Shown here: in pieces, positions 50,380 to 53,377 of the stretch
Layout of the letters: each line of letters begins with the position of its first letter
Position numbering within the stretch: position 1 is the stretch's first letter
DNA from: Puniceicoccales bacterium Verruco_02
GTDB lineage: Bacteria; Verrucomicrobiota; Verrucomicrobiia; Opitutales; Oceanipulchritudinaceae
DNA length: 64,000 nt
Direction of reading: 5' to 3'
Assembly (NCBI GenBank): GCA_001604585.1
Contig: LVBW01000010.1
Span: 1 to 64,000, forward strand
Made by a program: the position numbers and the translations under genes
Notes under the pieces: generated by a model
What the model saw: the letters and a program-made list of their open reading frames with translations, nothing else
Told to the model about the DNA's origin: nothing
Databases searched by the model: none

Positions 50380-51042
50380 CTAGCTCTTGCGTCTTTTCAG
50401 TGCGGCAAGAGCCAGTGCTCCGCACCCGAGCATGGCAGCATACGTGGATGGCTCTGGTACGACAAGATACGGTTTGTAGTTGCTGCTGTCTGCGGTGTAG
50501 AAGCTAAACCCGGCGTCGCGGTTGCTGTAATCCCCGGTTGTGTTTGGCTCGAAGCTGAAGCAGCTATAGTTGTAGCCATTATTGAGGTCGCTCTCGATGT
50601 ACGAGGTGACGTCAATACTCAGCCAGCCGCTCAGGCCAGCAGCAACGGTGCTTACCACAACGTCGCCGTATAGCTTTTGTGAGGCGTTGCCGTTGGCGTT
50701 CGAAGCGTTGCTCACGTGTTTGATGGAGCCTGCGTCGGGGGTAGTTCCCGTCAGGTAGCTGTTGATTATATATATGTTCAGCGTGGCGGTAGAGCCGGCA
50801 AGATGCGCAAGTCCGGAGATGCTGAACTGGATGAATGCACGGTTGTAACTTAATGTGTCACTGGTGCCCCAAAACATGTAAGAGGCATTATTGACGGTGG
50901 ATGTGCTGTCGAAGTAATCATACGATGAGCCTACCTCGTCGTGGAAGTAGCCGTCGTTGATGGAGGATGGCGTCACGACGACGCCATAGGCTGACGATAA
51001 TGTCAGCATGAGTATGCCTGTTAGAGGTATGGGAGATTTCAT
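50380..51042 (-). CDS. Exported PEP-CTERM protein with DNRLRE-like domain
   Basis: A 220-residue secreted protein: signal peptide (PLTGILMLTLSSAYG), a middle domain resembling DNRLRE/carbohydrate-binding modules of secreted proteins (RAFIQFSISGLAHLAGSTAT, TLNIYIINSYLTG, WLSIDVTSYIESDLNNG, NRDAGFSFYTADSSNYKPYL), and the C-terminal exosortase tail VVPEPSTYAAMLGCGALALA with the basic end KRRKS. The Ser/Asn/Tyr-rich middle and lower G+C match the first PEP-CTERM gene. ATG 51042 follows an in-frame GTG at 51048. Function may be cell-surface or extracellular matrix. Confidence 0.85.
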   Translation of the reverse strand: MKSPIPLTGILMLTLSSAYGVVVTPSSINDGYFHDEVGSSYDYFDSTSTVNNASYMFWGTSDTLSYNRAFIQFSISGLAHLAGSTATLNIYIINSYLTGTTPDAGSIKHVSNASNANGNASQKLYGDVVVSTVAAGLSGWLSIDVTSYIESDLNNGYNYSCFSFEPNTTGDYSNRDAGFSFYTADSSNYKPYLVVPEPSTYAAMLGCGALALAALKRRKS

Positions 51043-51139
51043 GCGCACGGCAGGCTAGAATCGTATGTCAGCTGGTGCAGCCCGATTTAATCGTTTGGTA
51101 GATGAACCGCACTTTTTCTTATCGGCCTTGGCGCGCTTT

Positions 51140-51568
51140 CTAGCGCATTCCCTGCACCCAGCCAAGTTCACCGGGGCCTATGATGCTGCGGTAGTAGCAG
51201 CTCATGCGGCTGTTGCCGTCGGCCCCCTTTGTGTGGCAGCCGCCCTGCCCGCGGGGGCGTACAAGGTAGAGTAGCGAGTTCTGCTCGCAGTTGACGCGCA
51301 CATCCACGATGTCGAGATAGTCCCCGCTTGTTGCGCCCTTTATCCACAGCTCGTTGCGGCTGCTGGACCAGAACACGGCCACCCGGTCCTTGAGAGTGCG
51401 CTCCAGGGTCTGGCGGTTGGCATAGGCCACGACGAGAAGCTCCAGCGTGTCGGCGTGCTGGACGGCCACCGGGAGCAGGGCCTGTCCACTGGCGGCCACC
51501 TTGCCCAGCTTGTCAAAGTCCAGTCTCTCCACAAGGCCTTCTTCGATTTCGCGGCTCATGGCAGGCAT
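51140..51568 (-). CDS. hisI: Phosphoribosyl-AMP cyclohydrolase
   Basis: Third step of histidine synthesis, opening the adenine ring of phosphoribosyl-AMP. The 142-residue protein has VVAYANRQTLERTL, VFWSSSRNELWIKGATSGD, VNCEQNSLLYLV and the zinc-binding GGCHTK...SCYYR cysteines. It lacks the fused HisE domain. Transcribed divergently from the dapF-like gene; no other his gene is near. Confidence 0.93.
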   Translation of the reverse strand: MPAMSREIEEGLVERLDFDKLGKVAASGQALLPVAVQHADTLELLVVAYANRQTLERTLKDRVAVFWSSSRNELWIKGATSGDYLDIVDVRVNCEQNSLLYLVRPRGQGGCHTKGADGNSRMSCYYRSIIGPGELGWVQGMR

Positions 51569-51684: not shown

Positions 51685-52545
51685 ATGAGCGTCCCCTTTC
51701 ACAAATACCATGCGCTGGGCAATGATTACCTTGTCCTTGACCCGGCGGACCTACCCGGCAGCCCGGAGGAGATTCCCTTCGATGTGGCGCAGATAGTGCG
51801 CATCTGCCACCGCAACTTCGGCCTTGGGTCCGACGGCATACTATGGGGGCCATGCCCTGCCGAGGGGGCGGACTTTGGTCTGCGTATCTACAACCCCGAC
51901 GGCAGCGAGGCGGAGAAGAGCGGCAACGGGCTACGCATATTCACGCGCTATCTCTACGACAGCGGCCGTGTGCGCAACGCCCCTTTCAGCATACGCACGC
52001 TCGGCGGAGTGGTGCAGAGTCAGGTGCATGAGGACGGCCTCATCACGGTGGACATGGGCAGAGTCAGCTTCATGAGCGATGCCATTCCCGTTCGTCCCGT
52101 GGAGCCAGTGCGCGAGGTCTTGGGCGAGACTATCAGGGTTCTAGGCGTCGATTACCGCTATTGCGCGGCCACGGTGGGCAACCCTCACTGCGTGCTGCCG
52201 ATGGACGAGGTAAGCGAGGAACTTGCGCGCAGGATTGGCCCGCATATCGAGAACGATGCCCGCTTCCCCAATCGCACCAACGTGCAACTGTTGAAGGTGC
52301 TGGACCGGGGCAACATTCAGATCGAGATCTGGGAGCGCGGGGCTGGTTACACGCTCGCCAGTGGCAGTAGCTCCAGTGCGGCTGGCAGTGTGGCGCGCAG
52401 ACTAGGCCTCGTGGACGAGGACATAACAGTGCATATGCCCGGCGGCCTTCTCAAGCTGCATATCGACAGCGATTACCGCGTGCGGATGACAGGCCCGGCA
52501 ACAAGGGTGGGCAAGATGCAGCTCGACGAAGAGGCCCTGAGCTAA
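51685..52545 (+). CDS. dapF: Diaminopimelate epimerase-like protein lacking both catalytic cysteines
   Basis: DapF inverts one stereocentre of LL-diaminopimelate to give the meso form for peptidoglycan and lysine, using two cysteines. This 286-residue protein keeps the two-domain DapF layout (YHALGNDYLVLDP, NPDGSEAEKSGNGLRIF, VGNPHCVLPMD, FPNRTNVQLL, IWERGAGYTLASGSSSSAAG). The catalytic positions read Ser79 in KSGNGLR, where CGNG is canonical, and Ser226 in ASGSSSS, where CGTG is canonical. Serines may serve another reaction or make it a non-canonical epimerase subfamily. I prefer the ATG at 51685 over 51670; the frame opens at 51571. No other dap gene is near. Confidence 0.8.
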   Translation: MSVPFHKYHALGNDYLVLDPADLPGSPEEIPFDVAQIVRICHRNFGLGSDGILWGPCPAEGADFGLRIYNPDGSEAEKSGNGLRIFTRYLYDSGRVRNAPFSIRTLGGVVQSQVHEDGLITVDMGRVSFMSDAIPVRPVEPVREVLGETIRVLGVDYRYCAATVGNPHCVLPMDEVSEELARRIGPHIENDARFPNRTNVQLLKVLDRGNIQIEIWERGAGYTLASGSSSSAAGSVARRLGLVDEDITVHMPGGLLKLHIDSDYRVRMTGPATRVGKMQLDEEALS

Positions 52546-52570: not shown

Positions 52571-53377
52571 CTACCACTCTGCCCCTTCGGTCATCTTTTT
52601 GCACAGCTTGCAGAAATCTTTCGTGCCCGCAAAAAAGGGGCCTCTCTCGCAGCGTACGTCGAACACCCGCAGCGGGAACAGTGGTTCCTTCATGTATTCT
52701 AGGTTCCCGCCAGCCGCCATCAGGAGGGCGATGGCCGCGGCCACGTCCCAGCTCTTGCAGCGGAAGTCTATGCAGCCTTCGATAAAGCCGAGCGCAACGT
52801 ATGTCAGTGTAAGCGCGCCGCTGCCCATACTGCGTACATTCAGGCCGCTTACGATGGGGTCAAGCCTCTGTCGCCACTCTCCGCGTATCGGAAAGGATAT
52901 GCCGACTATGCTCTTTTCCTGAAGGGGAATCTGTGGCATGAGGCCCACCGAGTCCTCGCCGTCGATAATGCCCAGACCGGGGCCGCCCTGCACTATGCGG
53001 TCTCTCCCGAAGTCGTAGATGAAGCCGTAAACGGGCATCCCATCGCGCAACAGGCCAAGCGATATGGCGCAGAAGGGCATACCGATGGCAAAGTTGTTCG
53101 TGCCGTCCACCGGGTCCAGTATCCATGCGTAGCGGGCCTTCAGCTCGCGGGGGCCGGAGCGTGGGTCGCTTTCCTCGCTGAAGACCTCGTCTTCGGGGAA
53201 GGCGCGGCCAAGTGCAGCGCAGATACTTTCCGATATGGCAAGGTCGGCAAAGGTTACGCGGGACTTGTCTTCCTTCCACTCGCTTTCCACGCGGCCAAAA
53301 TGTTTGCGAAAGAAGGCCACTTGTTCCTTCACGCAGTCGTAGCCTACCTGCATTCTTTGCCCAAGCTCTCCATCCAT
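52571..53377 (-). CDS. Inositol monophosphatase family protein
   Basis: A second Mg2+-dependent phosphatase of this family, 268 residues. Metal motifs: SEESDP, WILDPVDGTNNFAIG and SWDVAAAIALLMAAGG, all intact. Compared with the copy at 19333-20094 it has different flanking loops, so the two probably differ in substrate (inositol phosphate, 3',5'-bisphosphonucleotide or histidinol-phosphate are options). Convergent with the dapF-like gene, 25 nt apart. Confidence 0.87.
   Translation of the reverse strand: MDGELGQRMQVGYDCVKEQVAFFRKHFGRVESEWKEDKSRVTFADLAISESICAALGRAFPEDEVFSEESDPRSGPRELKARYAWILDPVDGTNNFAIGMPFCAISLGLLRDGMPVYGFIYDFGRDRIVQGGPGLGIIDGEDSVGLMPQIPLQEKSIVGISFPIRGEWRQRLDPIVSGLNVRSMGSGALTLTYVALGFIEGCIDFRCKSWDVAAAIALLMAAGGNLEYMKEPLFPLRVFDVRCERGPFFAGTKDFCKLCKKMTEGAEW

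Follow-up and report, generated by a model that had tools for sequence, protein, structure and literature searches.

A dapF-like gene with serines at both catalytic positions

The window, a stretch of 64,000 nucleotides from Puniceicoccales bacterium Verruco_02, carries on its forward strand at 51685..52545 a gene for a protein of 286 amino acids (plus stop), here called serine-type dapF. It is the sole PF01678 gene of the genome. The open reading frame (ORF) product matches PF01678 in two halves (176 bits), passes the diaminopimelate (DAP) epimerase (DapF) equivalog TIGR00652 (222.1 bits versus a cut-off of 114.65), and fails NF038284, the model for the bifunctional DapF/glutamate racemases (53 bits versus a cut-off of 350). 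Its neighbors lie on the reverse strand. The divergent neighbor (51140..51568; PF01502, 79 bits) is a HisI-type gene and is not part of the system; this homolog scored 89 bits versus the equivalog cut-off of 126, which suggests a divergent phosphoribosyl-AMP cyclohydrolase. The convergent neighbor (52571..53377; PF00459, 134 bits; TIGR02067, 98 bits, below its cut-off) belongs to the inositol-monophosphatase family, is HisN-like, and is context only. A CBM96-domain protein with a PEP-CTERM-like sorting signal at its end (VPEPSTYAAMLGCGALALAALKRRKS) is encoded at 50380-51048, also on the reverse strand. We found no convincing promoter or terminator for serine-type dapF, and an unfiltered six-frame ORF comparison around the best 80 of at least 574 named loci (see below) gave no clear conserved neighbor.

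An earlier note on this DNA had claimed that the sequences KSGNGLR and ASGSSSSAA stand in place of the two cysteine motifs of DapF, and both the reading of the ORF and its alignment to solved DapF proteins agree. The first motif (residues 78-84) is encoded at 51916..51936 and the second (residues 225-233) at 52357..52383, both on the forward strand. Ser79 (codon AGC, 51919-51921) and Ser226 (codon AGT, 52360-52362) align exactly with the catalytic cysteines of the solved proteins 9mro, 3ejx, and 8qzy, which are Cys75 and Cys224 in Anabaena DapF; thus both thiols are absent, as had also been stated. The two catalytic cysteines by which DapF is recognized are therefore serines here. The PROSITE signature PDOC01029, quoted in PMC8225329 as N-x-(DN)-(GS)-(SENGFT)-x(4)-C-(GI)-N-(GA)-x-R, corresponds to N70-P-D-G-S-EAEK-S79-G-N-G-L-R, in which the Cys is the sole mismatch. 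The same serines occur in proteins 86% and 74% identical from two other species of the genus. Identical serines in relatives across the order, and in all of the best 80 named loci (see below), exclude chance, a sequencing error at both codons, and a decayed gene.

Retention of the DAP pocket

The AlphaFold model of the protein has a mean pLDDT of 94.6 and the two-domain DapF fold. It superimposes on Pseudomonas aeruginosa DapF (8qzy) with a Z score of 36.2 and a root mean square deviation (rmsd) of 2.1 over 273 residues, and on Anabaena DapF with a Z score of 35.4, so the earlier statement that the rest of the fold is intact holds. In the model, helices 80-92 and 227-239 begin directly after Ser79 and Ser226. 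O-ureidoserine racemase is matched about equally well (Z of 36.0).

This last value favors a different reading, in which the protein has the DapF fold but racemizes or isomerizes another substrate, and meso-DAP either comes from an unknown enzyme or is not required. DapF-fold enzymes have changed substrate before, to histidine, 2,4-diaminobutyrate (Dab), and O-ureidoserine. We consider such a change quite unlikely for this protein. Among solved sequences the nearest is DapF, with O-ureidoserine racemase ranked lower, and the residues that bind DAP are all present. Structures from 2025 (PMC12039745) give the DAP-binding residues of Anabaena DapF as Asn13, Asn66, Gly76, Asn77, Asn164, Asn197, Glu215, Arg216, and Gly225; these map to the identical residues Asn13, Asn70, Gly80, Asn81, Asn166, Asn199, Glu217, Arg218, and Gly227. 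The pair Glu217-Arg218 (52333..52338, forward strand), equivalent to Anabaena Glu215 and Arg216, binds the distal end of DAP according to the same study (PMC12039745). Next to these residues, Ser228 stands where Anabaena DapF has Thr226. In 94 Ser/Ser sequences, a set that includes some close relatives, the DAP-binding residues are invariant except for one Ser at Asn199. Retention of the pocket discriminates between substrates because in PddB, a Dab racemase with the DapF fold, Asn64, Asn157, Asn190, and Arg209 (Haemophilus influenzae numbering) are lost, and the three Asn and the Arg so replaced are those that hold the distal carboxylate (PMC8225329). Serine-type DapF does not bear this mark of a Dab racemase, as all the distal residues are retained.

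About 20 further alignment columns separate the serine-type proteins from Cys/Cys DapF, including those of Tyr8, Lys78, Gln201, Glu214, Tyr222, and Ser229. Lys78 directly precedes Ser79, and Tyr222 is four residues ahead of Ser226. These columns change along with the serines, and the protein could be a DAP epimerase in which not the Ser pair but another conserved residue (clade-specific Lys78, Tyr222, or Tyr8, or invariant Cys41) transfers the proton, or that uses a single base plus water. Cys41 is present in 94/94 Ser/Ser sequences; however, it is also Cys in 72% of the Cys/Cys enzymes, where it is non-catalytic, and the Lys78 position is Ile in two sequences (L045 and L048). In contrast, the serines are conserved in nearly every clade member, across codon classes, and occupy the known acid/base positions. 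We regard a non-serine acid/base as unlikely, with some weight left to it.

The DAP pathway of the host genome and its order

The window's genome assembly (2.7 Mb, 101 contigs) is 96.6% complete. A search for a second, canonical dapF, which the earlier note had proposed as a check, returned none: a profile search of the assembly found no other PF01678 gene. The genome encodes DapB (216 bits), DapL (546 bits), and a MurE that scored 534 bits versus the DAP-ligase equivalog cut-off of 373 and has the DNPR motif. It also encodes a LysA-like decarboxylase (239 bits, under the LysA cut-off of 297.9). Thus, the pathway context expected for DapF (DapB, DapL, DAP-type MurE, and LysA) is present, with the LysA-like protein below its cut-off. 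No meso-DAP dehydrogenase (Ddh) match was found in this genome, and a bypass of DapF by Ddh was therefore rejected.

The LysA-like decarboxylase (L258:518-1774, contig 77) has counterparts at about 225-285 bits in nearly the whole order, and these proteins appear from these scores to be a distinct LysA subfamily. Co-adaptation of LysA with serine-type DapF was rejected, as below-cut-off scores occur alike in genomes with Ser/Ser and with Cys/Cys DapF (the latter being G023 and G047).

Nearly all members of the order have MurE matches. Three small genomes (G028, G040, and G041) have no lysA match and keep DapB, Ser/Ser DapF, and MurE, which fits a product destined for peptidoglycan. A lysA match is also missing from G022 and G025; G025 likewise keeps DapB, Ser/Ser DapF, and MurE, and G022 has no MurE match, yet dapB and dapF are kept. 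In a further member of the order, G051 (3 contigs, 96% complete), the Ser/Ser gene is accompanied by DapB; neither MurE nor LysA was matched at 1e-10, nor were there the cross-hits to other Mur ligases that most relatives show. This genome, which is possibly that of a wall-less member that retained dapF, counts against our reading and for a different substrate, as another use of the gene is conceivable there. By eye, its dapF (L259) adjoins what resembles a biotin gene cluster.

The pathway also bears on whether the protein is a catalytically dead DapF retained for binding, for example, to a partner protein. Serine would be expected to be a poor stand-in for cysteine, and Escherichia coli DapF does have a partner role, as in its solved complex with RppH (6d13). 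We nevertheless judge a dead enzyme to be highly improbable: most members of the order have the gene as their sole DapF and nearly all have MurE, the MurE of the window's genome is of the DAP type, and the entire substrate pocket is invariant.

DAP itself has been detected in Opitutaceae. Gas chromatography/mass spectrometry (GC/MS), which does not resolve the stereoisomers, found it in Opitutus terrae and three Lacunisphaera strains, and for one of the strains examined the proteins of the DapL pathway, with one DapF, are listed (PMC5303756). Judging from its family, that DapF would be Ser/Ser, as the Opitutus- and Opitutaceae-titled loci described below are.

Distribution and phylogeny of the serine form

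DapF was matched in 51 of the 55 relatives, each time as a single gene with two exceptions: G035 has an additional weak fragment below the cut-off, and in G052 the gene is split over two contigs. All readable relatives have the Ser/Ser motifs except four, namely G023, G039, and G047 (Cys/Cys) and G049 (Ser/Cys). The Ser/Cys protein (L049) is very divergent and comes from a reduced genome of 1.0 Mb that is without DapB, DapL, and LysA matches; it is probably decaying or repurposed. At each of the two sites both AGY and TCN serine codons occur. These codon classes are not linked by single synonymous changes; therefore, serine itself has been kept by selection.

When named genomes were scanned, at least 574 loci were found to encode relatives, and the best 80 are all Ser/Ser. 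These 80 are mostly from Opitutales, Opitutaceae, and Puniceicoccales, with some titled Desulfococcaceae, Desulfobacteraceae, Desulfococcus, Pseudomonadota, Armatimonadota, and Sedimentisphaerales. In Cerasicoccus frondis and in the complete genome of Verrucomicrobia bacterium IMCC26134 the Ser/Ser gene is the only DapF gene. The Sedimentisphaerales and Armatimonadota metagenome-assembled genomes (MAGs) with a Ser/Ser gene also have a Cys/Cys gene and are possibly mixed bins. The match scores of 288 genomes of the phylum separate into distinct groups, and of 40 loci read from other families, the 12 with high scores are Ser/Ser and the remainder Cys/Cys. The serine clade thus spans almost all of the window's order and is sporadic elsewhere in Verrucomicrobiota.

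In the order of one of the Desulfococcus MAGs, a high-scoring member occurs in 26 of 146 genomes and is Ser/Ser in 25; the exception, L231 of G433, is Ser/Cys. The serine-type gene is alone in 18 of the 26. The other 8 have a second, low-scoring copy, which is Cys/Cys wherever it was placed in the tree, and this coexistence also counts against our reading.

When both catalytic columns were left out, a branch supported at 100/100 set all the serine-type sequences apart from the others in a tree of 52 sequences. In a tree of 108 sequences, also without the catalytic columns, the branch support was 97 (SH-aLRT), apart from the very long branch of L049. Independent losses of the cysteines are not supported, the proteins forming one clade even without these columns. 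The trees suggest that serine-type DapF is an old, separate DapF clade. Nested inside it is L231, whose first site is Ser and whose second is Cys (GYTLACGSAAS); it shows that the second site is able to revert to, or to tolerate, Cys.

Exchange with Cys/Cys DapF or Ddh

Most genomes of the window's order have a single Ser/Ser gene, and three have a single Cys/Cys gene. Two near-complete genomes without DapF (G032 and G053) both have Ddh (462 and 449 bits, respectively), and their relatives in the same genus or family carry Ser/Ser DapF. Genus g90 contains both forms (Ser/Ser in G091 versus Cys/Cys in G160). Of eight more genomes of the phylum in which DapF is absent, as judged solely by the Ser/Ser profile at 1e-6, six have Ddh and two (G213 and G341) do not. 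The association of DapF absence with Ddh presence gave Fisher P values of 0.003 in the relatives and 6e-9 in the pooled genomes, which are not independent of each other. One genome (G050) has Ser/Ser DapF and Ddh together, and none of the 18 genomes of the Desulfococcus order with a lone serine-type gene has Ddh. A single genus or family can thus contain the serine form in some genomes and, in its place, either Cys/Cys DapF or meso-DAP dehydrogenase in others. This interchange with Cys/Cys DapF, and the complementarity to Ddh, are further points against a different substrate.

Proposed function and mechanism

The gene most probably encodes a working LL-/meso-DAP epimerase (DapF) with a Ser/Ser acid/base pair, a reading to which we assign a probability of about 0.8. 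DAP is the likely substrate, and catalysis on DAP is what sequence and genome context predict. That Ser79 and Ser226, and not another pair of residues, would be the acid and the base is the weaker part of the proposal. Neither a distinct substrate nor a binding role, the alternatives raised in the earlier note, is supported, given the conserved DAP contacts, the sole dapF beside DapB, DapL, and DAP-type MurE, and the exchanges described above. Its suggestion that serine is a poor substitute and that the chemistry differs stands in this form: with both thiols absent, the acid/base chemistry must differ from that of a thiol/thiolate pair. We would describe the protein as DapF-like and acting as DapF, although it fails the definition by catalytic cysteines and the PROSITE signature.

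LL-DAP from DapL would be converted by serine-type DapF to meso-DAP, which would pass to MurE for peptidoglycan and probably also to the LysA-like decarboxylase for lysine. The two-domain fold would shut on DAP in the manner of DapF, placing Ser79 and Ser226, each at the N terminus of a helix, on opposite sides of the α-carbon. One serine would remove the α-proton after activation by the helix dipole, by backbone NH groups, and by residues specific to the clade; in this 1,1-proton transfer, the other serine would give a proton back from the opposite side. We lean toward a version in which Lys78, Tyr222, Tyr8, Ser228, and Ser229, which are fixed together with the serines, would tune both hydroxyls. 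Against catalysis by serine, engineered Cys-to-Ser mutants of the DapF-fold racemases HisR and PddB are almost inactive, and chemical models assign serine a far higher pKa.

Natural enzymes offer partial parallels. Aspartate/glutamate racemases belong to a different, glutamate-racemase-like fold class. In these cofactor-independent enzymes a hydroxyl replaces one thiol (Cys/Thr; PMC8142540), whereas in serine-type DapF both are replaced. 4-Hydroxyproline epimerase has the same overall fold as DapF and catalyzes a two-base reaction with Ser93 opposite a Cys, and 3-hydroxyproline dehydratase has Ser/Thr at the catalytic sites (PMC4113996). The natural serine in 4-hydroxyproline epimerase is the reason for proposing a Ser/Ser two-base transfer here. 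These members of the proline racemase superfamily nevertheless differ from serine-type DapF in their substrates, in having (in the epimerase) Ser at the first site only, and in sequence (12-18% identity in structure alignments). PddB (Dab), HisR and CntK (His), and DcsC (O-ureidoserine) share the fold and the two-base principle but keep the thiol pair, and PddB is without the distal DAP-binding residues kept here. The closest system remains DapF itself (PF01678, TIGR00652; 9mro, 3ejx, 8qzy, and 1gqz), which is alike in fold, length, DAP contacts, pathway context, and single copy; it differs in the two catalytic residues, the further clade-specific residues, and the clade. We found no earlier description of a Ser/Ser DapF in the open-licence literature.

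Implications

DapF is a model for cofactor-free removal of an α-proton (pKa near 29), which is generally attributed to a thiol/thiolate pair. This textbook mechanism may have an alternative in DapF, and the interest of the serine type lies in its unexplained chemistry, not in its function. With a large natural clade that seemingly uses two hydroxyls, why serine works where engineered mutants fail becomes testable. Motif rules that require Cys would label these organisms negative for DAP epimerase, and the finding bears on the long-standing debate about the peptidoglycan of Verrucomicrobia subdivision 4 (PMC5303756). Serine-type enzymes would be expected to escape aziDAP and other thiol-directed inhibitors. 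L231, as a natural Ser/Cys intermediate, would be a useful comparison enzyme; in G433, L231/L262 adjoin genes resembling leuC and leuD.
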